64,000 bases of DNA from Falsiruegeria mediterranea M17 (GTDB lineage: Bacteria; Pseudomonadota; Alphaproteobacteria; Rhodobacterales; Rhodobacteraceae): contig NZ_ONZG01000006.1 of NCBI RefSeq assembly GCF_900302455.1, positions 1 through 64,000 on the forward strand, read 5' to 3'. The translations under genes and the position numbers were made by a program. Shown here one piece after another: positions 40,944 to 62,698 of the stretch (within the stretch, counting starts at the first letter, position 1; each line of letters begins with the position of its first letter). The notes below the pieces were generated by a model that was given only the letters and a program-made list of their open reading frames with translations, had not been told where the DNA came from and ran no database searches.

Positions 40944-41540
40944 TTGGCCCGCACGATTGCAAAAGACCATGATCAGAAACGGGCTCAGATCCTGAAATCC
41001 GCCGCGCGCGTCTTTGCGCGCGAGGGGTTCGATCGCGCGTCAATGACCCAATTGGCGCGGGAATGCGGGATATCAAAGGCGAACATCTATCACTACTACG
41101 ACAGCAAGGATGCCATCCTGTATGACATCCTGGAAATCTATCTGCGCGAACTGCGGGATCTGATTTGCGGTATCGATTTGTCCGGCTTGGATGACGCGGC
41201 CCGTTTGCGCATGGTGATTGCCGAGATCTTGCTGGCCTATCAGGGTGTGGACGACGAGCACCGTGTTCAGATCAGCGGCATGTCCGCTTTGCCTGAAGAA
41301 CAGCAAAAGGTTTTACGCGGTTATCAGCGTGATATGGTTGACTACCTAAGCGACATCCTGTGCCAAGTTGCCCCCGGTACCTTTGAAAATAGCCCTGGCA
41401 AGCTTCGGTCCACTACAATGTCGATATTCGGCATGCTGAACTGGTATTACATGTGGAATACCGGCGCGGGAACGCAGGCGCGCGAGGACTATGCCGATCT
41501 GGTGACCAAACTCACGTTGAATGGCGTCGGCTCACTCTGA
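40944..41540 (+). CDS. TetR-family regulator of the paa cluster (PaaR-like)
   Basis: A 198-residue TetR repressor. The N-terminal helix-turn-helix spans about residues 12-58 (ILKSAARVFAREGFDRASMT and CGISKANIYHYYDSKDAIL), followed by an all-helical ligand domain. The start is a TTG at 40944 after AAGGAA. Co-transcription with paaGIK and three similar palindromes in paa promoters make it the likely paa repressor, probably released by phenylacetyl-CoA. The last 9 bp overlap the convergent epimerase-like gene. Confidence 0.88.
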   Translation: MARTIAKDHDQKRAQILKSAARVFAREGFDRASMTQLARECGISKANIYHYYDSKDAILYDILEIYLRELRDLICGIDLSGLDDAARLRMVIAEILLAYQGVDDEHRVQISGMSALPEEQQKVLRGYQRDMVDYLSDILCQVAPGTFENSPGKLRSTTMSIFGMLNWYYMWNTGAGTQAREDYADLVTKLTLNGVGSL

Positions 41541-42677
41541 CACGGATTGCGGGCGCCGCCGCAGGGCGGCCTTTCGTGCGAACGTGACAGTATCCAGATA
41601 GGTTTGGGATAGGTCGGAACGCGTATCCTTCAACAATAGATCGCCGTAGCTCAGAAAACGTTGTGCCCCTGTCAGTTCATAAAGCTGATAGAGCTGCCGA
41701 ATGGCCCGACCCGGTAAGTAATCCCCTTCGAACCAACGTCCCAGAGCGTACCGGCTATAGGTGCCTGGACGACGGAAGCACGCGACGGTTGCTTCGATTG
41801 TGGTTGCTCCGGCCCGCGTGAGAGTTCCGAAATCCCGTCCTGGAAAGTTCAGCGAAAGTTCATGCAGCGCCAGAACCGCAAAAATATGACCGTTTTGAAC
41901 CCGCGTAGCGCGCCCGTTGGGCAGAGGGTATTCATCGAACCAAAGATATCCGGCACGATCCCGAAATGAAATCCAACGACCCGGAGCAACACCTCCTTGG
42001 GTATGGATCCCTTGAAACGCGCGGCCGTACATCAAAAGGTCCTCGTCCACGGCAAGATGTTTGGAAAGACGTAGGCAACCAAGGATCGCAAAGGCGTTTG
42101 AGATGGCGCTGACCCAAGGCGCGTCCAACGCGGGTGACGTCGAATTCAGGGCAAAGCGATTTTCGATAAATGCCGCATCACCATCGCGAACAGTGAAAGC
42201 GCGCAACCGTTCCAGCAGCAGGTTTGCCAGTGTAAGGGCGGCCAGTTGCCGGGCTGGATCCTGTTCAGATTTCAGGTATTCGTCCAGCGCGATGGCGTTC
42301 CGCCAGAAAACGACGGGCTGAAACAGCTGCCCATATTCATCCGTGTAGGTCTTGGACCAGGGGAAAGGCAGGGCCTCCTCCAAGGACAACGACGTTTGCG
42401 GATGCCATCCCTCTGGTGGTGACAGCACCGGATGCTGCCCGACGACAGGCGTTGTCAAAAGATCGTAGTCCACCAACAAAATCTCGGGCAGATCGGGAGC
42501 AATCGAATGCATCTGCGCGTTTTTCGGTCGGATTGGGCGCCATCGTTCCCCTCCTTTGAGAAGGCGGGCGTAATACACCATGTGGACCAGAACATGCTGC
42601 GTGTAGTGCCGACAAAAATGCAGCGCAGGACGCACAACTTTCCGCACCATAGTCAGATTTTGAGTAGAGGGTTTCAC
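41532..42677 (-). CDS. D-glucuronyl C5-epimerase-like protein
   Basis: A 381-residue protein without a clear signal peptide. The C-terminal half resembles the conserved domain of heparosan glucuronyl C5-epimerases: YLWFDEYPLP, TRVQNGHIFAVLALHEL, then YSRYALGRWFEGDYL and LYQLYELTGAQRFL. The first block aligns with the WFEEYP and LNG-F-F-L-GLYD motifs I recall for that family, including the expected Tyr residues. That would mean modification of a uronic-acid polysaccharide. No glycosyltransferases lie nearby. The start is uncertain: GTG at 42677 or ATG at 42650. Confidence 0.62.
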   Translation of the reverse strand: MKPSTQNLTMVRKVVRPALHFCRHYTQHVLVHMVYYARLLKGGERWRPIRPKNAQMHSIAPDLPEILLVDYDLLTTPVVGQHPVLSPPEGWHPQTSLSLEEALPFPWSKTYTDEYGQLFQPVVFWRNAIALDEYLKSEQDPARQLAALTLANLLLERLRAFTVRDGDAAFIENRFALNSTSPALDAPWVSAISNAFAILGCLRLSKHLAVDEDLLMYGRAFQGIHTQGGVAPGRWISFRDRAGYLWFDEYPLPNGRATRVQNGHIFAVLALHELSLNFPGRDFGTLTRAGATTIEATVACFRRPGTYSRYALGRWFEGDYLPGRAIRQLYQLYELTGAQRFLSYGDLLLKDTRSDLSQTYLDTVTFARKAALRRRPQSVSE

Positions 42678-51543: not shown

Positions 51544-52635
51544 CTATGGGTCGACAGCCTCACGCATCCATTGTTGTAACCTGGCAATGGAATGCTCGGA
51601 CATCACGCCACCCGATGGGTCCAGTACCAGCGGACCCGGACGATACCCTCGCGATTTAAGGCCGCGATAGACCGATTCCACAAGGTGAATGTCTTCCTCC
51701 ACAGTGGTTTCGCGGTCCTGTACTGCAAGTTGCCGGATGACCGCGCTTTCCGACCCGCCCTCGGTGAACCAACCGCGCCAGACAGTGCAGTGATCGGTGC
51801 CCTGGGCGCGCCAGTGATAGGTGTTGAGCACATTGCCCGGATAGCATTGAAACGAAAACATCGGCCACAGGAACCACGACTGATAGTCACCCGCATGGGG
51901 CACCGACATGTCGATGGGATAGGTCATCTTGTCGAGGGCCTGACACTCGGTGGTGTGGCGCAGGACATAGCCGCCACCCTCGTCGGGTTTGATGTCATAG
52001 GTCTCGGGTTTGACCACACCTTCGGCAAAGGTGGGGTGGTTGGTCGGGCAGTGATAGCACTCCGAATAGTTCTCGATGCTGACTTTCCAGTTACAGTTTT
52101 CTGGAACCTCGACCCATTCCAACGGTTCAAGCGCGTCGATGTGGGGCACATAGGCGCGGATTTCTTCGCGCACGCCGGGATACCAGTCGTCCATAGGTGC
52201 CGCATCGTCATCAAGATTGACGAAGATGAAGCCGTTGAACACTTCGGTTTGGACCGAGGTCAGGCAAATGGCCGAGCGGTCAAATCCCGGCACTGACTTG
52301 ATGTTGGGCCCTGCGCGCAGCTCGCCTGACAGCTCGTAGGTCCACGAGTGGTATGGGCACACGACCACACGCGTATTGCCCGCACCGGTGACCATTTCAT
52401 GCGCGCGGTGTTGGCAGACGTTATAGAAAGTTCGGATCTCACCATCGCGGCCGCGGATGCAGAACAGGCTCTCGCCCGCGATCTCGAAGGCAAAGTAATC
52501 CCCGATTTCGCGGACCTGAGCGATATGGCCCGCAAACTGCCAGGTGCGGGCCAGAAGACCCTGCATTTCCTGCTCGAAAATCGCAGGATCGGTATAATAG
52601 CGCGCGTCCAGAGACTGCGTCAGGGGTGCGTTCAT
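51544..52635 (-). CDS. Rieske oxygenase of the betaine/carnitine demethylase type
   Basis: A 363-residue aromatic-ring-hydroxylating-type alpha subunit. The Rieske cluster ligands are VCQHRAHE and VVCPYHSW, and the mononuclear iron site is ENYSECYHCPTNHP. Overall it resembles quaternary-amine demethylases such as GbcA, CntA and stachydrine demethylase, which remove methyl groups oxidatively from betaines. No reductase component is encoded nearby, so it must borrow one. The start overlaps the RpiR gene stop by 4 nt. Context suggests proline-betaine or hydroxyproline-betaine demethylation. Confidence 0.85.
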   Translation of the reverse strand: MNAPLTQSLDARYYTDPAIFEQEMQGLLARTWQFAGHIAQVREIGDYFAFEIAGESLFCIRGRDGEIRTFYNVCQHRAHEMVTGAGNTRVVVCPYHSWTYELSGELRAGPNIKSVPGFDRSAICLTSVQTEVFNGFIFVNLDDDAAPMDDWYPGVREEIRAYVPHIDALEPLEWVEVPENCNWKVSIENYSECYHCPTNHPTFAEGVVKPETYDIKPDEGGGYVLRHTTECQALDKMTYPIDMSVPHAGDYQSWFLWPMFSFQCYPGNVLNTYHWRAQGTDHCTVWRGWFTEGGSESAVIRQLAVQDRETTVEEDIHLVESVYRGLKSRGYRPGPLVLDPSGGVMSEHSIARLQQWMREAVDP

Positions 52636-53519
52636 TCAGGCTCCTCCGCATATAGGCCCAATTGATGGCGACGACGATGAAACCGCTCGACCCGTTCGAC
52701 GATCTCGTCGCTGGAGACGGCGATCACAAAGGACAGCAGCGTTTCCAACAGTGCGATTGTCGACACGGACGAGGGGAAAAACTGCGGCGTGTCGGCAGCA
52801 ACGACAAATCCGTGATTGGCGTTCAAGATCACTGGGCTCGCCGGGCTGTCTGACAGACCCACCACTGTCATCCCTTGCTCGCGTGCCAGCTTGATCGCTT
52901 CGATCACCTCGGTGCGATACGGATGGCAGGTGATGGCGATCAGCACGTCCTGCTCATCCGCCCAGGCCAAATCGTCGATTGCCGTGGACCCCGGTCGCGG
53001 GATCGCGTGAAACTGCTTCATTCCTGTTGAGGCAAGATAAGTGAAGTTGCGCGCGTTCGAGTTGTTGACGCCTACGCCCAGGGTATAGATCTGTCGCGAA
53101 TTCCAAATGTCCGTCGCGGCCGCCTTCAGGGCTTCTTCGCTGATCCCACCAAATGTCTCTTCGATATTGCGGATCGCAGCGCCCACCATATCGGCATACA
53201 GCCCGCCAAGCTCGCCGGACTTCCCAATATCCTGCAGCCATCGAGCGCGATCCGGGAAGGACACGGTCCCCCGCCTGATCGCGTCGCGGAATGGGGCGCG
53301 GAAATCCTCGTACCCATCAAAACCCACTTGGCGGGCCATGCGCACAAAGGTGTTGGGTTTCACATTGGCGGCTTCGGCAATCTCGCGCACGGTCGAAACC
53401 CCCACATCCGTGGGGTTTTCCAGAACGTAACGCGCGGCCTTCTGCGCCTCGGGCGTCAGGGCATCCCATTCCTCGGTCAGCCGGTTCAGAACGATTGATG
53501 ATACATTTGTGTCATTCAT
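52632..53519 (-). CDS. RpiR-family HTH/SIS regulator
   Basis: A 295-residue regulator with an N-terminal RpiR helix-turn-helix (VSTVREIAEAANVKPNTFVR, about residues 40-60) and a C-terminal SIS sugar-isomerase-like domain (IYTLGVGVNNSNARNFTYLA, then VLIAITCHPYRTEVIEAIKL). It probably senses a pathway intermediate. I chose the ATG at 53517-53519; an in-frame start at 53573 is possible. It is coupled to the Rieske gene and divergent from the flavoprotein gene, with an 8-bp inverted repeat around its start. Confidence 0.85.
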   Translation of the reverse strand: MNDTNVSSIVLNRLTEEWDALTPEAQKAARYVLENPTDVGVSTVREIAEAANVKPNTFVRMARQVGFDGYEDFRAPFRDAIRRGTVSFPDRARWLQDIGKSGELGGLYADMVGAAIRNIEETFGGISEEALKAAATDIWNSRQIYTLGVGVNNSNARNFTYLASTGMKQFHAIPRPGSTAIDDLAWADEQDVLIAITCHPYRTEVIEAIKLAREQGMTVVGLSDSPASPVILNANHGFVVAADTPQFFPSSVSTIALLETLLSFVIAVSSDEIVERVERFHRRRHQLGLYAEEPE

Positions 53520-53540
53520 GATTGACGATGGTACAAATGT
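53503..53540. promoter_or_regulatory. Inverted repeat at the RpiR/flavoprotein divergent promoter
   Basis: ACATTTGT (53503-53510) and ACAAATGT (53533-53540) are perfect 8-bp inverted copies, with centres 30 bp apart. They straddle the RpiR start and lie 48-85 bp before the flavoprotein start. Two half-operators three helical turns apart would suit an autoregulating RpiR dimer pair. Confidence 0.5.
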
Positions 53541-53587
53541 GGAATTAGCCTGTCGAGCAGAATCGTGATGCATGAAGTGGAAAAATC

Positions 53588-56041
53588 ATGTCCGAGAATA
53601 AACTGCCGTCGCACGCCCGCGTTGTCATCGTGGGTGGGGGGGTCATGGGTGTGGGTCTTGCCTATCACCTGGCGCACGAAGGCTGGACCGACGTCGTCTT
53701 GCTGGAGAAGGGGGAGCTGACATCAGGCTCGACCTGGCACGCCGCCGGACAGATCACCCATTCGACCAGTTCGTTTGGTCTGGGCAAATGCGTGGACTAC
53801 AACATCGGACTCTATTCCGGTGCGCTAGAGGTCGAGACAGGGCAGGCCGTGACATGGCATGGTTGTGGTTCGTTCCGCCTGGCATATACCGAGGATGAGA
53901 TGGATTGGCTGCGCCACACCCTGTCTGTGGGCCGGTCGTTGGGCTTCAACATTGAACTTGTTGGGCCCGAGAAGGTGGCCGAGCTGCACCCGTTCTACAA
54001 CCTCGACGGGGTTTTGGGTGCGCTGTACACGCCAGATGACGGTCACGTTGATCCAACCAATGTGACGATGGCGATGGCGGCAGGTGCACGCGCGCTGGGC
54101 GTCAAGATCGTCCGCCGCTGCCGCGCCACCAACATCACTCAAAGACCGACCGGTGAATGGGTGGTGGAAAGTGAGCAGGGCGCCATCACTTGCGAGCATG
54201 TGGTGAATGCGGGCGGCACCTATGCCCGTCAGATGGGCGAATGGTCCGGCCTGCAACTGCCGATGACCTCGATGACGCACCACTATTTTGTCACCGACCC
54301 CGTGCCCGAATTCGAGGGGCTGGACAAGGAACTCCCCGTCATCCGCGACGACAAAAAGGTCTCGGGCTACATCCGGATGGAGCAGAAACGCGGCCTGATC
54401 GGCATTTACGAAAAGGCCAACCCGAACGCGGTCTGGCTGGATGAATGCCCGTGGGACTATGAAAACTGGTTGTTTGAAGCTGACTATGACCGTGTCATGC
54501 CCTGGCTCGAAGAGAGCCTGAACCGTATGCCGATCTTTGCTGAGTTGGGGATTTCCCGCGACGTGCACGGTGCCATTTCGCATCCACCAGATGGCAACCC
54601 GCTGATCGGCCCTGCGCCGGGTGTGCGCAACTATTGGTGCTGCTGCGGCACTCAGATCGGCATCGGCTGGGGCCCGGGCCTGACACGCGAGCTGGCGCGC
54701 TGGATGGTGCACGGATCTGCCGACATCTCGATGCGCGAATACGATCCGCGCCGTTTCGGCAGCTATGCCACCAAGGATTGGCAGGTCACCAAGGCCAAGG
54801 AAGACTACTGCCTGCGCCACGAAATCCCGTTCCCACATTTCAACCGCCTTGCGGGGCGCCCGATCAAACCCTCGCCGCTCTATGACCGGCTCAAGGACAA
54901 AGGCGCGGTTTATGAAGAGGTCTATGGTCACGAACGTCCCCGCTGGTTCGCCAAAGACGGCGTCGAGCAGCGCGATCACTATTCGTTCACGCGCAACGCG
55001 GTGCACGACATGGTCGCGGGTGAGTGCAAGGCCGTGCGCGAGGCCGTCGGCATCATGGACATTTCGGCATTCACCAAGGTCGAGGTTGCGGGTCCGGATG
55101 CCAAGGCACTGCTGGATCGATTGACAGCCAACCGCCTGCCACAAAAGGTCGGGGGGATTGCGCTGACCCACATGCTCAACCGCCGGGGCCGGATCGAGCT
55201 GGAAACAACGGTCGTGAAGCTGGACGAGGGGCGGTACTACCTCGTCTGTGCCGCCTTCTTTGAGCAGCGCCTGCTGGATCATCTTGAACAGCAGCGTGAT
55301 GGAGAGGATGCCGAGATCATCCTGCGGTCCAACGACTGGGCTGCTTTGTCAGTCAATGGCCCCGCCGCCCGCGACGTGATGACGGCCTGCACCGATGTGG
55401 ACCTGTCCAACGCCGGGTTCAAATGGCTCACCGCGCAAGAGATCGAGGTCGCAGGCCACAAACTCTGGGCTTTCCGAATGTCTTATGCGGGTGAGCTGGG
55501 GTGGGAACTGCACATCCCCCGCGAAAACACCCTTGCCGTTTACGACGCGCTTTGGGCCGCAGGTGAGGTGCATGGCATCACCGACTATGGCTCATTCGCG
55601 ATGAACTCCCTGCGGATGGAAAAAGGGTTCAAAGGTGCAGGTGAGCTGACCAACGAGGTCACACTGGCCGAGGCCGATGTGTTGCGCTTTGCCCGGCAGG
55701 ACAAAGAGTACTTAGGCAAGGACAAGACGCTCAACACCGATCTGCCTTGGGTCTGCGCCTATCTGGAGATCGAACCCGACGGTGTCGAAGACGGCCATGG
55801 TGGTGAGGCCGTGATGCTGAACGGGCAGGTGGTCGGCTCGACCGCATCTGTGGCTTACGGCCACACGGTTAGCAAGATCCTGGCGTTTGCCTATATCAAA
55901 CCCTACGCCAACCATCCCGGCGCCGAGGTTGAGGTCATCATCGCGGGCAAAACCCGCGAGGGTCGTATTCTGGGCGAGCCCGCTTACGACCCACAAAGCC
56001 TGTTGCCCCGTACCGACGCCACCAAGGTGGCCGCAGAATGA
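53588..56041 (+). CDS. Dimethylglycine/sarcosine dehydrogenase-like flavoprotein
   Basis: An 817-residue two-domain N-demethylating oxidoreductase. The N-terminal FAD domain has VVIVGGGVMGVGLAYHLAHE (12-31) and the STWHAAGQ motif, in which His51 corresponds to the covalent FAD attachment site. The C-terminal half is a folate-binding GcvT domain (about 430-810; AVHDMVAGECKAVREAVGI, then SYAGELGWELHIPREN). Such enzymes demethylate N-methylated amino acids and pass the C1 unit to tetrahydrofolate. In this cluster N-methylproline-type intermediates are plausible substrates. A 71-bp gap leads to the next gene. Confidence 0.9.
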   Translation: MSENKLPSHARVVIVGGGVMGVGLAYHLAHEGWTDVVLLEKGELTSGSTWHAAGQITHSTSSFGLGKCVDYNIGLYSGALEVETGQAVTWHGCGSFRLAYTEDEMDWLRHTLSVGRSLGFNIELVGPEKVAELHPFYNLDGVLGALYTPDDGHVDPTNVTMAMAAGARALGVKIVRRCRATNITQRPTGEWVVESEQGAITCEHVVNAGGTYARQMGEWSGLQLPMTSMTHHYFVTDPVPEFEGLDKELPVIRDDKKVSGYIRMEQKRGLIGIYEKANPNAVWLDECPWDYENWLFEADYDRVMPWLEESLNRMPIFAELGISRDVHGAISHPPDGNPLIGPAPGVRNYWCCCGTQIGIGWGPGLTRELARWMVHGSADISMREYDPRRFGSYATKDWQVTKAKEDYCLRHEIPFPHFNRLAGRPIKPSPLYDRLKDKGAVYEEVYGHERPRWFAKDGVEQRDHYSFTRNAVHDMVAGECKAVREAVGIMDISAFTKVEVAGPDAKALLDRLTANRLPQKVGGIALTHMLNRRGRIELETTVVKLDEGRYYLVCAAFFEQRLLDHLEQQRDGEDAEIILRSNDWAALSVNGPAARDVMTACTDVDLSNAGFKWLTAQEIEVAGHKLWAFRMSYAGELGWELHIPRENTLAVYDALWAAGEVHGITDYGSFAMNSLRMEKGFKGAGELTNEVTLAEADVLRFARQDKEYLGKDKTLNTDLPWVCAYLEIEPDGVEDGHGGEAVMLNGQVVGSTASVAYGHTVSKILAFAYIKPYANHPGAEVEVIIAGKTREGRILGEPAYDPQSLLPRTDATKVAAE

Positions 56042-56112
56042 CCCAGCCCCTCTCTTTTGTTCCAAATGCGGCGGGTGCAGCGCGCCCCTCTCACCTTGAA
56101 AGGACACCTGAA

Positions 56113-57195
56113 ATGACCATCCCCGCAACGATGAAAGCCATGGTTCTGACCGGTCACGGCGATCTGGACAAATTAGAATGGCACGAAGATTGGCCCACTC
56201 CCCAGGCAGGGCCGATGGAAGTGTTGATCAAGGTCGGTGCTTGCGGCCTCAACAACACCGACGTGAACACTCGTACGGGCTGGTATTCCAAGGCGGTGGA
56301 CGAGGCCACAACCGGTGGCGCCTATGATGAGGTCGACGACGAAGACAGCACCTGGGGCGGCGCGCCGCTGACGTTCCCTCGTATCCAGGGCGCAGATGCC
56401 GTGGGCGAGGTTGTCGCGGTCGGAGAGGGCGTTGATCCGGGCCTCATCGGCAAGCGCGTTATGGTGGCCGGTTGGCTGCGGGACTGGGATGAACCGATGA
56501 ACCGCGACAAGGCCGGATATTTCGGCTCGGAATGCGACGGTGGTTATGCCGAATACACCAAAGCCGACGTTCGCGGGACCGCACCGATCGACTGCGATCT
56601 CAGCGACGCTGAGCTTGCCACCTTCATCTGCTCGTATGTCACCGCCGAGGGCATGGTGGATCGCGCCAATGTCGGGGCAGGGGACACCGTGCTGATCCCC
56701 GGCGCATCCGGCGGCGTGGGCGGCGCGCTGATTCAGCTGGCCAATCTGCGCGGGGCGCGCACCATCGCAATGGCGTCCGAGGCCAAACATGCCGAGGTTG
56801 CCGAATTGGGGCCGAACATGATCCTGCCACGGAACCCTGAAAACCTGCGCAAGGCGCTCAAAGGTGAGAAAATCACCGTGGTTGCTGACGTCGTCGGTGG
56901 TGACAATTGGCCCAAGCTAATTGACGTTCTCGAACGCGGCGGACGTTACACCTGTTCGGGCGCCATCGCCGGCCCCATGGTCGAGCTTGACCTGCGTACC
57001 TTCTATCTGCGGGATCTGACGTTCACCGGCTCGACCGTCAATCGTCCGGAAAACTTCACTGATGTCGTGAAACTTATAGAGGATGGCAAGATCAAGCCAG
57101 CTTTGGCCGCGACCTACCCCCTTAATCAACTACGAGAGGCCCAGCAGGCCTTTATCAACAAAACCCACACCGGAAACATCGTAGTGATCCCATGA
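56113..57195 (+). CDS. MDR-family alcohol dehydrogenase/quinone reductase
   Basis: A 360-residue medium-chain dehydrogenase/reductase. The N-terminal catalytic fold includes [19 protein letters not shown] and the nucleotide motif is [19 protein letters not shown]. The structural-zinc cysteine cluster and the classic CGxCGTD catalytic segment are missing, so it is nearer to quinone oxidoreductase-like reductases. It is not obviously AcuI, the acryloyl-CoA reductase of DMSP catabolism, but reduction of an unsaturated product is possible. The ATG at 56113 is preceded by AAAGGAC. Its stop overlaps the dddQ start (ATGA). Confidence 0.82.
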
Positions 57196-57770
57196 CCCTC
57201 GACGCTGTCCTTGAAGCCGCTCGGCAATTGCATGCCGTGCACCCCGATCTGAACGGGTTCGCCCCCTGGCCGGATGACCTGACCCCATCCGGCCTGCAAC
57301 CGCGAGCTGTCCCAGCCTCTGACCTTGTGGCGAACTTGACCTTGCCAGGAACGCAACGGACAGATGCCTTGGTGCAGGCGGTGAAATCGGCCACACATCT
57401 GGCAAGCTGGAAACGCACCTATACCGAAGAAGAAGTCGGCGCCGATTTTCGCAATTGCTATGGCTACTACGAACTCTTTGGACCCACGGGTCATTTTCAC
57501 TCGACCCAACTGCGTGGTTACATCGGCTTTTGGGGCGAGGGGCTGAGCTATGACTGGCACAGTCACGAGGCCGAGGAGTTGTATCTAAACATCGCGGGCG
57601 AAGCGACGTTCTACGCTGATGAGGATCGGGTCAGCGTCCCAGCGGGCGAAACCCGTGCTCACAACAGCTGGCAAAGCCACGCGATGGTAACACATGGCCA
57701 GCCTATCCTGACCTTCGTGCTCTGGCGCGGGGCGGGCATGGCCGATCTGCCAAAGATGGACGCCGCATGA
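57192..57770 (+). CDS. dddQ: DddQ-type cupin, predicted DMSP lyase
   Basis: A 192-residue single-cupin protein. The metal and active-site segment [12 protein letters not shown] occupies residues 120-131, giving Tyr120, His123, His125, Glu129 and Tyr131, with His163 in NSWQSHAM. These are the positions I recall for catalytic and metal-binding residues of the DddQ structure from Ruegeria lacuscaerulensis, so length and numbering agree. DddQ cleaves dimethylsulfoniopropionate to dimethyl sulfide and acrylate. The gene overlaps its neighbours on both sides by ATGA, tying it to a betaine-epimerase operon, so another natural substrate is possible. Confidence 0.88.
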
Positions 57771-58873
57771 AAATCACCCGCATCCGTGTCTTTCAAACAG
57801 ATCTGCCTTACGTGGGCGGGGCTTACGTCTGGGGCGCCGGCAATGCGATCAAAGTCGCACGCGCCTCGGTCGTGGTGATCGATACTGATGCGGGGCTACA
57901 GGGCTGTGGAGAGTTCACACCCTGTGGCGAAAACTACATGGTGGCGCACTCCGAAGGGGTGCCTGCGCTTGCCCGTCTGATCGCACCGCATCTGTTGGGC
58001 GAGGACCCTCGTAATGTGGCCCGGATCGAGCAGGTCATGGACCATCTGGTGCAGGGACACGGCTACGCCAAATCACCCTTTGATGCGGCGTGTTGGGATA
58101 TCCTTGCGCAATCCCTCAACGCGCCGCTTTGGGCGGTCTGGGGCGGCAAGCTGACCGATGGTGCGCCCATGTACCGCGTGGCGCCACAAAAGAGTACCAG
58201 CGAGACCATCACCGAGATGGAGGTTTATCGCGCACAAGGATATCGCCAGTTCCAGATTAAGGTGGGCGGCGACTGGGCTGCTGACATCGACCGTATCCGG
58301 TCTACCGTGCCGCTGCTGAAACCGGGTGAAAAGGCGATGGCGGATGCCAATCAGGGCTGGCGTGTGGACAATGCGATCCGCGTAGCCCGTGCCACGCGCG
58401 ACCTGGACTACATCCTAGAACAACCCTGCCGCACCTATGCCGAATGCCTGCAGGTGCGCGCGCGAACCGACCTGCCGATGAAGCTGGACGAATGCGTGAC
58501 CTGCATGGCCGTGGCACAGCAAATCGTGGCAGATCGCGCGGCAGAACTCGTTTGCCTCAAGATCTCCAACCTCGGCGGCCTCTCTAAGGCTCGCCGCGTG
58601 CGTGACTACCTTGTTGAAAACCGCATCCCTGTTGTTGCCGAAGACACCTGGGGCGGAGAGATCACCAGTGCCGCTCTTGCTCATTTCGCGGCCACCACGC
58701 CGCCCGAATACATGCACAACACCACGGACCTGATGAACTACAACACCCGTTCGACGGGCCTCGGCGGGCCAGAGGCGCGCGACGGCAAGTTATATGCCAC
58801 CGACACGCCGGGTTTGGGTGTTACCCCTGATTTCGACAGTCTCGGCACCCCGGTAGAGGAGTTCGTCCAATGA
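57767..58873 (+). CDS. hpbD: 4-hydroxyproline betaine 2-epimerase-like enolase-superfamily enzyme
   Basis: A 368-residue mandelate-racemase/muconate-lactonising-type enzyme. Paired bases are Lys165 (QIKVGGD) and Lys265 (CLKISNLGG); metal ligands are Asp193, Glu219 and Glu242. The N-terminal [16 protein letters not shown] and [13 protein letters not shown] segments closely match my recollection of HpbD from Pelagibaca, which epimerises trans-4-hydroxy-L-proline betaine and proline betaine. The cation-binding tryptophan near the N-terminus is present. It is coupled by ATGA overlaps to dddQ and to the cupin gene. Confidence 0.87.
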
Positions 58874-59154
58874 CCGAACAAGCAAAAGCCACACAGATGA
58901 TCGACGACGATCGGGTTCGGGTCACGCGGTTCGATTTCGCGCCCGGAGCAGAAACCGGATGGCACCGTCATGCGATGGATTACGTCATCACCGCGGTCAC
59001 CGACTGTCATATGCGGCTGGAGCTGCCCGACGGCACGTCAAACGAAGTCACCGTCCCTGCAGGCACCTCATATCGCCGCGACGAAGGTGTCGAACACAAT
59101 GTCATCAACGCCTCGGATCAGCCGATGAGCTTTGTCGAAGTGGAACTGAAATGA
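58870..59154 (+). CDS. Small cupin-domain protein
   Basis: A 94-residue single-cupin protein. The first cupin motif reads PGAETGWHRHAMDYVITAVTD in two parts, giving WHRH and a downstream aspartate, and the second includes GTSYRRDEGVEHNVIN with a late His. It could be a metal-binding isomerase, lyase or sensor. It is unrelated in length and motif to the adjacent DddQ. ATGA overlaps link it to the epimerase before it and the second enolase-superfamily gene after it. Confidence 0.82.
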   Translation: MTEQAKATQMIDDDRVRVTRFDFAPGAETGWHRHAMDYVITAVTDCHMRLELPDGTSNEVTVPAGTSYRRDEGVEHNVINASDQPMSFVEVELK

Positions 59155-60260
59155 AAATCACCCGCATCACGGTCTATCACGTCGATCTGCCGCTCGAGCA
59201 TCCCTATTGGCTCTCGGGCGGACGGCTCAAGTTCGAAGTATTGGACGCCACGCTGGTCAAGCTTGAAACCGACGCGGGGCTTGTGGGATGGGGCGAGGGC
59301 ACGCCTTGGGGGCACACATACGTGCCTGCCCATGGACCGGGCATCCGCGCCGGGATCGAAACCATGGCACCCTTCATCCTTGGTCTCGACCCGCGCCGCG
59401 TTCTGGACGTGGAGCGCGCGATGGATCTGGCGCTGCCGGGGCATCTCTATGCGAAATCCCCCATCGACATGGCCTGTTGGGACATTGCGGGGCGGGCGGC
59501 GGGCCTGCCGATTGCTGACTTGATGGGCGGCGGGTCTCGAACTCCACGTCCCATCGCTTCCTCGGTCGGTGCAAAGACCGCGGCCGAGACTCGCGCCGTC
59601 GTGGACCGCTATCGCCAACGCGGCTATGTCGCCCATTCCGTCAAGATCGGGGGCGACGTCGAACGCGACATCGAACGCGTCCGCGATATGGAAGACATCC
59701 GCCGCCCCGGTGAAATCGTGCTCTACGACGTCAACCGTGGCTGGACCCGGCAGCAGGCCCTGCGCGTGATGCGCGCGACCGAAGATCTGCAGGTGATGTT
59801 CGAGCAACCGTGTGAAAGCCTCGATGACATTGCCACCATCCGCCCGCTGCATTCGGCCCCGGTGAGCGTCGATGAAAGCCTTGTCACCCTTCAGGACGCT
59901 GCCCGTATCGCCCGCGATGGCCTGGCCGAGGTGTTCGGGATCAAGCTCAACCGTGTCGGCGGCCTGACCAAAGCCGCCCGTATGCGCGACATCGCTTTGG
60001 CGCACGGCATCGACATGTTCGTCATGGCGACTGGCGGTTCGGTGCTGGCCGACACCGAGGCGTTGCATCTCGCCGCTACCATTCCCGATGCCAACTGCCA
60101 CGCGGTTTGGGCCTGTCAGGACATGCTCACCGTGGACGTTGCCAATGGTCGCGGTCCCCGCAACATTGACGGCCATCTGCATCTGCCCGAAACCCCTGGC
60201 CTAGGCGTTCACCCGGACGAAGACGCATTGGGCGATCCGGTAGCTGTCTACGCCTCATGA
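59151..60260 (+). CDS. Second enolase-superfamily (MR/MLE) enzyme
   Basis: A 369-residue barrel enzyme with Lys165 (SVKIGGD), Asp193 (YDVNRGW), Glu218 (FEQP), Glu242 (SVDES) and Lys265 (IKLNRVGG), so it keeps the two-base racemase layout. It shares the same residue spacing as the upstream epimerase but is clearly diverged, with LEHPYWLSGGRLKFE at the N-terminus. It probably acts on a related cyclic amino acid or betaine. The ATG at 59151 overlaps the cupin stop; the much longer frame from 58959 is out of phase with the cupin gene and rejected. Confidence 0.85.
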   Translation: MKITRITVYHVDLPLEHPYWLSGGRLKFEVLDATLVKLETDAGLVGWGEGTPWGHTYVPAHGPGIRAGIETMAPFILGLDPRRVLDVERAMDLALPGHLYAKSPIDMACWDIAGRAAGLPIADLMGGGSRTPRPIASSVGAKTAAETRAVVDRYRQRGYVAHSVKIGGDVERDIERVRDMEDIRRPGEIVLYDVNRGWTRQQALRVMRATEDLQVMFEQPCESLDDIATIRPLHSAPVSVDESLVTLQDAARIARDGLAEVFGIKLNRVGGLTKAARMRDIALAHGIDMFVMATGGSVLADTEALHLAATIPDANCHAVWACQDMLTVDVANGRGPRNIDGHLHLPETPGLGVHPDEDALGDPVAVYAS

Positions 60261-61360
60261 AGCTTATCCGCATCTCTGTGTGGCACGTGCCACTTACCAG
60301 TCACACCGCCTATTACATGGCCGACGGCAAAACCTGCGACACGGTCGAAACGGTGGTCGTGGCTCTTGAAACCGACGCTGGCCTGACCGGGTGGGGAGAG
60401 GTCTGTCCGATCCCCCACTATCTGCCGGCCTACGCCCGTGGCGTGGCGCCCGCTGTGCAGGAAATGGCGCCGATGCTGCTCGGCGCTGATCCTGTCGGAC
60501 CCGAGGCCCTGATGGCCAAGCTCGACAAACACCTGCCGGGCCACGTTTATGCCAAATCCGCACTGGACATCGCTCTTTGGGATCTGACCGGGCAGGCCGC
60601 CAACCTGCCGCTTCATGCACTTCTTGGTGGGCGCCGAACCGAGACGATGCCGCTCTATCATTCGATCACCTGCGTCGCACCTGATGAAATGTCCCGTATC
60701 GCACAGACCGCTTATCAGTCAGGTATGCGCCAGTTTCAGGTCAAGCTGGGCGCCGATGCCGATTGGCAAGCCGATGCCGCCCGCTTGCGCGAAGTACGCG
60801 AAGCAGTAGGAGATGGGCCGTTGGTCTATGGTGACTGGAATTGCGGCGCCACCTCGCTGGATGCCACTCGCGTAGGGCGCGCTGTGGCAGATCTGGACAT
60901 CATGCTGGAACAGCCTTGCGCCACCATCGAAGACTGCGCCCGGGTTCGCGCTGCAACGGGTCTGCCGATGAAGCTCGATGAAAACGCCCATGACACGGCC
61001 AGCCTGTTGCAAGGCCACGCTCAGGGCTGCATGGACGCCGTCGCGCTGAAACTGTCGAAATTTGGCGGGCTATCTGCCACCCGCCGCGCCCGCGACCTGT
61101 GTCTGCATTTGGGCGCCAAGATGTGCATCGAAGATACTTGGGGCTCGGACATCACAACAGCCGCGCTGCTCCATCTGGGCGCGTCGACGGACCCGACCCG
61201 CGTTCTGAACGTCTGCGATCTGTCTGGCTATGTGGCTCCACGGCTCGCCCCTGATGCTCCGACGCGCGAACAAGGTCGGATTTCGCCGCCGGACGGACCC
61301 GGTCTTGGCATTCAACCTGACAAAGATGTGCTCGGCCTGCCCGATCTCGTTCTTGACTGA
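60257..61360 (+). CDS. Third enolase-superfamily (MR/MLE) enzyme
   Basis: A 367-residue barrel enzyme with Lys163 (FQVKLGAD), Asp193 (YGDWN), Glu218 (LEQP), Glu242 (KLDEN) and Lys265 (LKLSKFGG). The N-terminal HTAYYMADGKTCDTVETVVV and GEVCPIPHYLPAYARGV resemble cis-3-hydroxyproline dehydratase-like subgroups, so a hydroxyproline dehydratase or epimerase role is plausible. Three successive paralogues suggest handling of several stereoisomers. It is the last member of the ATGA-linked chain; the next gene starts after 63 bp. Confidence 0.84.
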   Translation: MKLIRISVWHVPLTSHTAYYMADGKTCDTVETVVVALETDAGLTGWGEVCPIPHYLPAYARGVAPAVQEMAPMLLGADPVGPEALMAKLDKHLPGHVYAKSALDIALWDLTGQAANLPLHALLGGRRTETMPLYHSITCVAPDEMSRIAQTAYQSGMRQFQVKLGADADWQADAARLREVREAVGDGPLVYGDWNCGATSLDATRVGRAVADLDIMLEQPCATIEDCARVRAATGLPMKLDENAHDTASLLQGHAQGCMDAVALKLSKFGGLSATRRARDLCLHLGAKMCIEDTWGSDITTAALLHLGASTDPTRVLNVCDLSGYVAPRLAPDAPTREQGRISPPDGPGLGIQPDKDVLGLPDLVLD

Positions 61361-61423
61361 TTTTTGACTTTCTGGTCAAAATTTCAAAACCCAAGGAATC
61401 CCCTACGGCAAAGGACCGCAGCA

Positions 61424-62698
61424 ATGGACAAAATCCTCTCACAAGCCGATTGGTTCGAACGCGCCAAGGCCGTCCTGCCCGGCGGCGGGTTCGGCAATTT
61501 CGATCCGACCATGTTCATTCGCGACGGCAAGGGCAGCCGCGTCTGGGACGAGAACGGCAAGGAATATGTCGACTTCCTGATCGGGTCCGGCCCGATGCTG
61601 TTGGGCCACGGCCACCCCGAAGTGCTCGAAGCAGTGGCCGAACAGCTGCCCAATGGCATGACGTTCTTTGCCAACAACGCGGCAGGGGTCGAACTGGCCG
61701 AGGAGATCTGCCGCGCCGTGCCGTGCGCTGATCAGATCCGATATGTCTCGTCCGGGGGCGAGGCCGATATGTACTCCATCCGGCTCGCGCGCGCTTTCAC
61801 GGGTCGCGACAAGGTGGTGAAGTTCGAAGGCGGCTATCACGGGATGAGCGCCGAGGCGCAGATGTCGCTGGCACCGTCGCGCATGGTGAATTTTCCGCAG
61901 GCGGTCCCGGACAGCGCAGGCATCCCTGAAAGCGTACGCGCCGAGATGTTGATCGCTCCGTTCAACGATCCCGATTACATTCGCTCGCTTCTGGCCGAGC
62001 ACGGGGATGAGGTCGCGGCCATCATCGTCGAGCCCCTGCAACGGATTATTCCACCCGCACCCGGCTTTCTGCAGTTGCTGCGTGATGAGGCCGATAAATA
62101 CGGCATTGTCCTGATCTTTGACGAAGTGGTGACGGGGTTCCGCTTTTCGTACGGCGGAGCGCAGGAGCTCTATGGCGTAACACCAGATGTGGCGACCCTG
62201 GGTAAGGTTATCGGCGGTGGCTTCCCTCTGGCCGCAATCGCAGGTCGCGCCGACATCATGGCGCATTTCGACAAGGCAACTGTCGGGGCGGACAAATGGC
62301 TGATGCAATTGGGCACGCTCTCGGGCAACCCTGTGGCGGCGGTTGCGGGTCTCAAAACGATGGAGGTGCTGCGCCGCGAAGGCGCGTATGATCAACTGCG
62401 GGCAAATGGTCAGCGGTTGATGGACATGGCCGGTGCCGCGCTATCAGAGCAGGGCATCGCGCACCAGATTGTGGGCGATCCAACCCTGTTCGAGATTGTC
62501 TTCACCGACACCCAGCCGCGTGACTATCGCGATGTGTTCAACGCGGACACGGCCAAAGGGGCCAAGTTCAACGCGGTCCTGATGCACGAAGGTATCTTCA
62601 AGGCGCCGGGCAAGACCTACCCGTCTCTGGCCCTGACCGAAGCAGATTTTGAACTGACAGGACAAGCTTACAAAGTCGCAGCGGCGGCGTTGGCCTGA
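61424..62698 (+). CDS. Class III aminotransferase, GSA-aminomutase-like
   Basis: A 424-residue PLP enzyme. It has the GSA-type features RYVSSGGEADMYSIRLARA, GGYHGMSAEAQ, LIFDEVVTGFRFSYGGAQE, the PLP lysine in TLGKVIGGGFPLAAIAGR and GTLSGNPVAAVAG. Glutamate-1-semialdehyde aminomutase is not needed in an ALA-synthase organism, so a catabolic aminotransferase or mutase acting in the hydroxyproline/betaine pathway is more likely. The ATG at 61424 follows AAAGGACC; the upstream frame from 61364 is not conserved in type. Confidence 0.85.
   Translation: MDKILSQADWFERAKAVLPGGGFGNFDPTMFIRDGKGSRVWDENGKEYVDFLIGSGPMLLGHGHPEVLEAVAEQLPNGMTFFANNAAGVELAEEICRAVPCADQIRYVSSGGEADMYSIRLARAFTGRDKVVKFEGGYHGMSAEAQMSLAPSRMVNFPQAVPDSAGIPESVRAEMLIAPFNDPDYIRSLLAEHGDEVAAIIVEPLQRIIPPAPGFLQLLRDEADKYGIVLIFDEVVTGFRFSYGGAQELYGVTPDVATLGKVIGGGFPLAAIAGRADIMAHFDKATVGADKWLMQLGTLSGNPVAAVAGLKTMEVLRREGAYDQLRANGQRLMDMAGAALSEQGIAHQIVGDPTLFEIVFTDTQPRDYRDVFNADTAKGAKFNAVLMHEGIFKAPGKTYPSLALTEADFELTGQAYKVAAAALA

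Follow-up and report, generated by a model that had tools for sequence, protein, structure and literature searches.

The dimethylsulfoniopropionate (DMSP) lyase DddQ makes the climate gas dimethyl sulfide (DMS), yet in Falsiruegeria mediterranea M17 its gene sits in an operon that appears to be built for stripping and remodelling nitrogen-containing osmolytes. We analysed this gene within positions 1 to 64,000 of contig NZ_ONZG01000006.1 (the window, 64,000 nucleotides) and compared its surroundings across public genomes. We lean towards the view that DddQ is a lyase that abstracts an alpha proton and that joins an RpiR-controlled betaine catabolic operon as an optional member; for this enzyme, cleavage of DMSP and of dimethylsulfoxonium propionate (DMSOP) is true but not exclusive. 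The coupling of dddQ with betaine enzymes suggested by the initial annotation of the window is strengthened by a linkage that extends over many genera, by the arrangement as one unit behind a putative operator and by repeated pairing; the roles assigned to the neighbouring enzymes fared less well (see below).

In the mechanism that we envisage, the RpiR-controlled operon would serve the catabolism of betaines, which are osmolytes of the quaternary-ammonium carboxylate type. Its core consists of a Rieske oxygenase (RIE), a dimethylglycine-dehydrogenase-like demethylase (DMGDH), the enolase-superfamily protein EN3 as the alpha-proton enzyme and an aminotransferase (AT). DddQ, with an MDR reductase and the enolase-superfamily proteins EN1 and EN2, belongs to an insert that can separate DMGDH from EN3, and would be expressed together with the demethylases. 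The metal of DddQ would bind the substrate carboxylate and a tyrosine would remove the alpha proton, with the onium group departing from the beta carbon. Its in vivo substrate would be an onium carboxylate handled by the betaine regulon, with a betaine-pathway intermediate as a serious candidate.

A conserved operon around dddQ

The initial annotation described six genes at 56113-61360 (in Pfam order MDR, DMSP_lyase PF16867, MR_MLE, Cupin_2, MR_MLE, MR_MLE) as a unit joined by five ATGA overlaps. All five overlaps were read directly, at 57192, 57767, 58870, 59151 and 60257, but the limits had been drawn too narrowly: the conserved unit extends from 51544 to 62698 (Table 1) and includes a sixth ATGA overlap at 52632-52635, between the RpiR and Rieske frames. 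Overlaps of four nucleotides are a widespread arrangement in bacteria. Their chance occurrence was judged here from conservation across loci: a start-stop overlap of this kind (ATGA, GTGA or TTGA) joins MDR to dddQ in 78 of 94 cases, and dddQ to the adjoining enolase gene in 65 of 82, with some genomes entering twice among the loci.

Gene order was compared in two sets of loci (L numbers; G numbers stand for genomes). The named set came from a profile scan of public genomes that gave 182 relatives; among the best 80 loci, which were kept, 62 had two or more kinds of operon partner in the vicinity of DddQ, 2 had MDR only and 16 had neither. The even set covered 394 genomes of the family, about one per genus. 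Here, 140 genomes matched DddQ at an E-value of 1e-3, many of the matches being remote cupins, and 60 DddQ-family loci at about 60 bits or more were read, with tandem copies taken together as one locus; fragments at contig edges (G136, G336 and G256:C139) were left out, as were all weaker matches. Twenty-two of these 60 loci lay in the operon, 5 had MDR only and 33 neither; one operon locus, G139:C3 (L212), was added later and stands outside the 60. The two sets overlap (e.g. L064/L118 and L085/L120), so that their counts are not independent. The linkage is conserved over many genera, and its lack in neighbouring genera, which the initial annotation had named as a finding that would speak against coupling, was not observed. 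In most loci the placement of DddQ is precise, with MDR or DMGDH on one side and an enolase on the other.

A link between an MDR gene and dddQ was already printed in 2012 for two roseobacters, Ruegeria pomeroyi (SPO1593/SPO1596) and Roseovarius nubinhibens (ISM_14095), and corresponds to that in the window (PMC3338564). In the section that gives this account, betaine enzymes, enolases and a regulator are unmentioned. We found no earlier description of the conserved betaine operon, the optional DddQ insert, its repeated recruitment or retention, or the putative operator, in literature that did not include Todd 2011 and Lei 2018. The dddQ of Ruegeria lacuscaerulensis ITI-1157 (L042), source of the crystallised DddQ, lies in an operon of the same type as in the window, although no EN1 was found beside it.

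The divergent placement of the RpiR regulator gene (RPIR) is conserved across the operon loci. Allowing for at most one mismatch in the left half and two in the right half, an inverted repeat, ACATTTGT-N22-ACAAATGT, was detected in 75 of 102 such RPIR-DMGDH regions, the window included, and 74 times with the 22-base spacer. It was present in 59 of 73 regions with DddQ and in 16 of 29 without (13/17 and 16/29 in the even sample alone); the background rate was 0.1% in shuffles and 31/3600 in random segments of the same loci. The host genome contains no second exact copy, and two sites elsewhere carry two mismatches. We predict this repeat to be the operator, and dddQ would be under the dedicated local regulator of the demethylation operon.

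Marked by EN2 or EN3, the operon occurs in 60 of the 394 genomes. A minimal form, RIE-RPIR-DMGDH-EN3-AT without MDR, DddQ, EN1 and EN2, was found at 11 loci (L195-L201, L206, L208, L210 and L211). Among the 59 operons read in the even sample (G176 was excluded, its genes lying on separate contigs, and G200, dddQ-positive in the first assignment, was corrected), DddQ is present in 24, EN1 in 21 and both in 16. Their co-occurrence inside the operon (16/8/5/30) gave a Fisher p of 6.5e-5 after reading of the loci and 5.2e-5 before. A tree of four core proteins from 58 operons has at least 18 changes in DddQ and 10 in EN1; among operon pairs differing in DddQ, EN1 differed the same way in 4.8, the opposite way in 0.1 and not at all in 10.1. 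For the presence of MDR or EN2, the one-gene tree gave no testable tendency with DddQ. Enolase copy number showed no correlation with DddQ copy number in operons that have DddQ (rho 0.10 for 19 even-sample loci, 0.16 for 58 named loci), and did so (rho 0.43, p 0.013, 32 loci) only once operons without DddQ were included.

DddQs from operons are scattered and do not form a single clade. Their context label changes 22 times on the DddQ tree, with at least 11 changes forced by well-supported branches, compared to 29 in shuffles (4 of 500 were as low). Either different DddQ lineages would have come to occupy the place time and again, or an old linkage would often have been broken; both fit a lasting selection for DddQ in the operon place. 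Marine bacteria have thus acquired or retained the pairing on many occasions, which suggests that the real job of DddQ may exceed its name.

DddQ and its partner enzymes

The dddQ product scores 59.9 bits with PF16867 (cut-off 27) and is the single match above the Pfam cut-off in the host genome, which also encodes one DmdA above the NCBIfam cut-off. Its identification as DddQ, active-site residues included, stood up to comparison with the R. lacuscaerulensis ITI-1157 enzyme (PDB 4la2, 5jso): the match to 4la2 is full-length, and all six residues essential in that enzyme (Tyr120, His123, His125, Glu129, Tyr131 and His163; PMC4437653) are present at identical numbering. By analogy, the window DddQ would be a lyase acting as its close relatives do. 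Over 56 loci with the full gene set, median identity to the window is 62% for dddQ, 84-90% for RIE, RPIR, DMGDH and EN2, and 68-71% for MDR, EN3 and AT; dddQ is the least identical of the seven operon genes in 49 of these loci. It is under purifying selection, with ratios of nonsynonymous to synonymous substitution rates of 0.085-0.142 in four comparisons, in one of which (L049) MDR lies slightly above dddQ.

EN1 had been annotated as a hydroxyproline-betaine epimerase, which was not borne out: it scores 171.6 bits with 2pmq and 154.6 bits with 4e8g versus 651.7 bits with 2rdx. We assume 2pmq/4h2h and 4e8g to be HpbD-type sequences, and take 4e8g to be a betaine epimerase whose Trp 321 binds the cation and 4mgg to be a cis-3-hydroxyproline dehydratase. 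Identities are 76% to 2rdx, 44% to 4mgg and 28% to 4e8g for EN1, 92% to 3eez and 37% to 4e8g for EN2, and 41% to 4mgg and 36% to 4e8g for EN3. The position matching Trp 321 is Thr in EN1 and Cys in EN3, and Trp only in EN2. With this Thr and the low identity to 4e8g, EN1 was rejected as an HpbD orthologue; the lack of this Trp in EN1 and EN3, though not in EN2, also weakens the broader proposal of co-translated partners acting on cyclic betaines. All three proteins match NF043002, the cis-3-hydroxyproline dehydratase model, over almost full length with 403.7 (EN1), 323.6 (EN2) and 349.7 bits (EN3), in each case below the cut-off of 500. In the alignment, each retains the pair of lysines and the three acidic metal ligands that an active enolase-superfamily member should have.

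HpbD catabolic clusters for hydroxyproline betaine and proline betaine, said to stem from work of Zhao in 2013 and Kumar in 2014, reportedly contain Rieske, demethylase and enolase-superfamily epimerase genes, types that the window operon would have in common with them. The window operon differs in its enolases (28-37% identical to 4e8g), in the extra DddQ and aminotransferase, and in that no transporter was seen among the ten frames scanned farther out. RIE scores 202.5 bits with 6y8j and 122.9 bits with 4qup, the latter presumably a stachydrine demethylase. AT reaches 392.7 bits with NF000818, under the cut-off of 398.

MDR, for which a further in-frame start lies at 56038, was rejected as an AcuI acryloyl-CoA reductase (NF051456, 35.9 bits versus a cut-off of 440). 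Relatives adjoining dddQ in two other strains were classed as MDR028, not as AcuI-like, and that of R. nubinhibens did not correct acrylate sensitivity (PMC3338564).

DMSP, DMSOP and betaines as substrates

If dddQ belongs to a betaine regulon, its poor affinity for DMSP and its weak induction by DMSP would be explained. DddQ has a Michaelis constant of 22 mM (PMC5395565). In R. pomeroyi, dddQ responded 1.08-fold to DMSP versus 4.3-fold for dddW, and 1.26-1.87-fold in the remaining DMSP conditions, the full range for dddW being 4.3-20.8-fold (PMC9769926, Table 2); another source gives an induction of 1-4 fold for dddQ in this organism versus 40-fold (PMC4437653). DddK, likewise a cupin among the DMSP lyases, makes C-N bonds by the addition of amines to acrylate (PMC12582016), and by analogy the lyase chemistry would allow nitrogen substrates.

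Several observations weigh against an optional betaine role of DddQ. DMS was down by 97% in R. pomeroyi and by 20% in R. nubinhibens dddQ mutants, and dddQ is stated to be DMSP-induced in both (PMC5395565), so that DMSP cleavage is physiological there. Of 158 DddQs, 117 agree at all fifteen pocket and core positions checked, irrespective of their context (82 operon, 30 neither, 5 MDR only). The operon core does not need dddQ, which is missing from 35 of the 59 operons, and that this core acts on an N-betaine is inferred from the enzyme classes. Corrected for the tree, the association of EN1 and DddQ is not significant (15 pairs on the four-gene tree, median p 0.06), and the one-gene tree offers 4 pairs only and has no power. 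The operator itself is a prediction: the repeat was not found, at a tolerance of 1 + 2 mismatches, in 27 of the 102 regions, and its left half overlaps the likely true RPIR start (MNDTN at 53519, from alignment), so that part of the left-half conservation may be coding. Finally, among 48 stand-alone DddQ loci, MDR is directly upstream in 7 (L085 and L120 among them are one and the same sequence), and 7 have a small gene within 7 kb; it is of the carboxymuconolactone-decarboxylase family in the one member scanned.

It is possible, though we give it less than even credence, that DddQ cleaves DMSP and DMSOP only, one regulator opening both sulfonium and ammonium routes, and that the adjacency reflects algal exudates carrying both kinds of osmolyte. 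The intact catalytic residues, the mutant phenotypes and the reported induction suit this reading, as does the 2-83.4-fold higher efficiency of DddK, DddQ and DddU on DMSOP than on DMSP (PMC10686828). DmdA, present in 23 of 25 dddQ-operon genomes and in 7 of 30 background genomes, would also fit, but it occurs in 25 of 35 operon genomes without dddQ as well (difference p 0.058) and in 16 of 20 chosen stand-alone DddQ genomes; these classes rest on the first operon assignment, with G200 as dddQ-positive, and the 20 stand-alone and 30 background genomes were picked from lists. Moreover, in all 13 pairs of DmdA and DddQ on a common contig, more than 300 kb lie between the two. The little DMSP induction in two of the above sources (PMC4437653, PMC9769926), the failure of the R. 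nubinhibens MDR to correct acrylate sensitivity and the operon setting as such do not favour a pure DMSP role either, and no DMSP or acrylate gene was found by Pfam annotation among 20 further neighbours of stand-alone DddQs, AcuI and other lyases not having been searched for. Because the pocket pattern is the same inside and outside the operon, and DmdA is common with or without dddQ, the sequence does not choose between DMSP and a betaine intermediate.

That DddQ enters and leaves an osmolyte island with no functional tie to its neighbours appears improbable. Many gains or losses on the trees and the rank of dddQ as the least identical operon gene would be compatible with such passive linkage, whereas its precise placement, the recurrence of overlapping frames and the presence of several DddQ lineages in the same operon place argue for a tie. 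A more far-reaching idea, which we rather doubt than believe, is that cupins of the DddQ family arose within betaine catabolism as beta-elimination enzymes, cutting the C-N or C-O bond of an onium carboxylate that the neighbouring enolases produce or epimerise, and that DMS release by DddQ in the sea is a side or secondary activity.

Our preferred reading, DddQ as an optional lyase of a betaine operon, would have consequences for the use of dddQ as a marker of DMS production. Of the bacterial genes for DMSP lyases, dddQ and dddP are described as the most abundant in an ocean survey (PMC5395565); if dddQ is in a betaine regulon, surveys may misread its abundance and expression. The defined operon, the putative operator and the optional insert make the natural substrate of DddQ directly testable.

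Gene inventory and further DddQ loci

Table 1. Features of the dddQ operon in the window
Feature	Position	Strand	Domains and closest matches
Rieske oxygenase alpha subunit (RIE)	51544..52635	-	PF00355/PF00848; closest solved relative carnitine monooxygenase
RpiR/SIS regulator (RPIR)	52632..53573	-	PF01418 + PF01380
Predicted operator, perfect inverted repeat ACATTTGT-N22-ACAAATGT	53503..53540	.	divergent promoter
FAD/folate dimethylglycine-dehydrogenase-like demethylase (DMGDH)	53588..56041	+	DAO + GCV_T; 5l46 546.6 bits, 4pab 542 bits
MDR reductase (MDR)	56113..57195	+	PF08240/PF00107; 4j6f 297.7 bits
DddQ cupin	57192..57770	+	PF16867; 4la2 288.8 bits over 1-192
EN1, enolase superfamily (MLE subgroup), 2rdx orthologue	57767..58873	+	2rdx 651.7 bits
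Small cupin	58870..59154	+	PF07883; 2fqp (hypothetical protein) 93.4 bits
EN2, enolase superfamily, 3eez orthologue	59151..60260	+	3eez 775.8 bits
EN3, enolase superfamily, minimal-core enolase	60257..61360	+	4mgg 275.1 bits, 4e8g 216 bits
Class-III aminotransferase (AT), glutamate-semialdehyde-aminomutase-like	61424..62698	+	PF00202; 5i92 303.8 bits

Among the ten outer frames, the ones with a Pfam match comprise phenylacetate genes, a ferredoxin-reductase type, a thiolase, a sulfatase, a methyltransferase and a protein with a D-glucuronyl C5-epimerase C-terminus domain. The last is encoded at 41532-42677, close to the phenylacetate genes.

Among the stand-alone DddQ loci, the carboxymuconolactone-decarboxylase-family gene lies at L144:10302-10775 (the domain was checked in L144 only), with similar frames in L095, L101, L137, L152, L159 and L162; smaller groups of 3-4 related loci have other genes in common. 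At L150:10190-12730, a dimethylglycine-dehydrogenase-like gene distinct from that of the window (34% identity) immediately precedes a stand-alone dddQ, which hints at a second demethylase link. In Shimia thalassica (L095:10001-11697), an EN2-like enolase (40%) directly follows DddQ, the rest of the operon being absent from the stretch examined. Three contigs labelled Candidatus Pelagibacter (L072, L079 and L080) lack the operon but encode DddQs that share 57-59% identity with the window protein, which may reflect transfer or mis-binning.

Copy numbers vary as well. For example, one expanded operon (L145:8844-16500) has six enolase-superfamily matches around one DddQ. Two neighbouring DddQ copies, as reported for R. 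nubinhibens (PMC3338564), were found within the operon in L053, L098, L102, L103, L104, L108, L124, L132, L147 and L166, and in L100, L109 and L140 two copies lie apart, each preceding an enolase gene.

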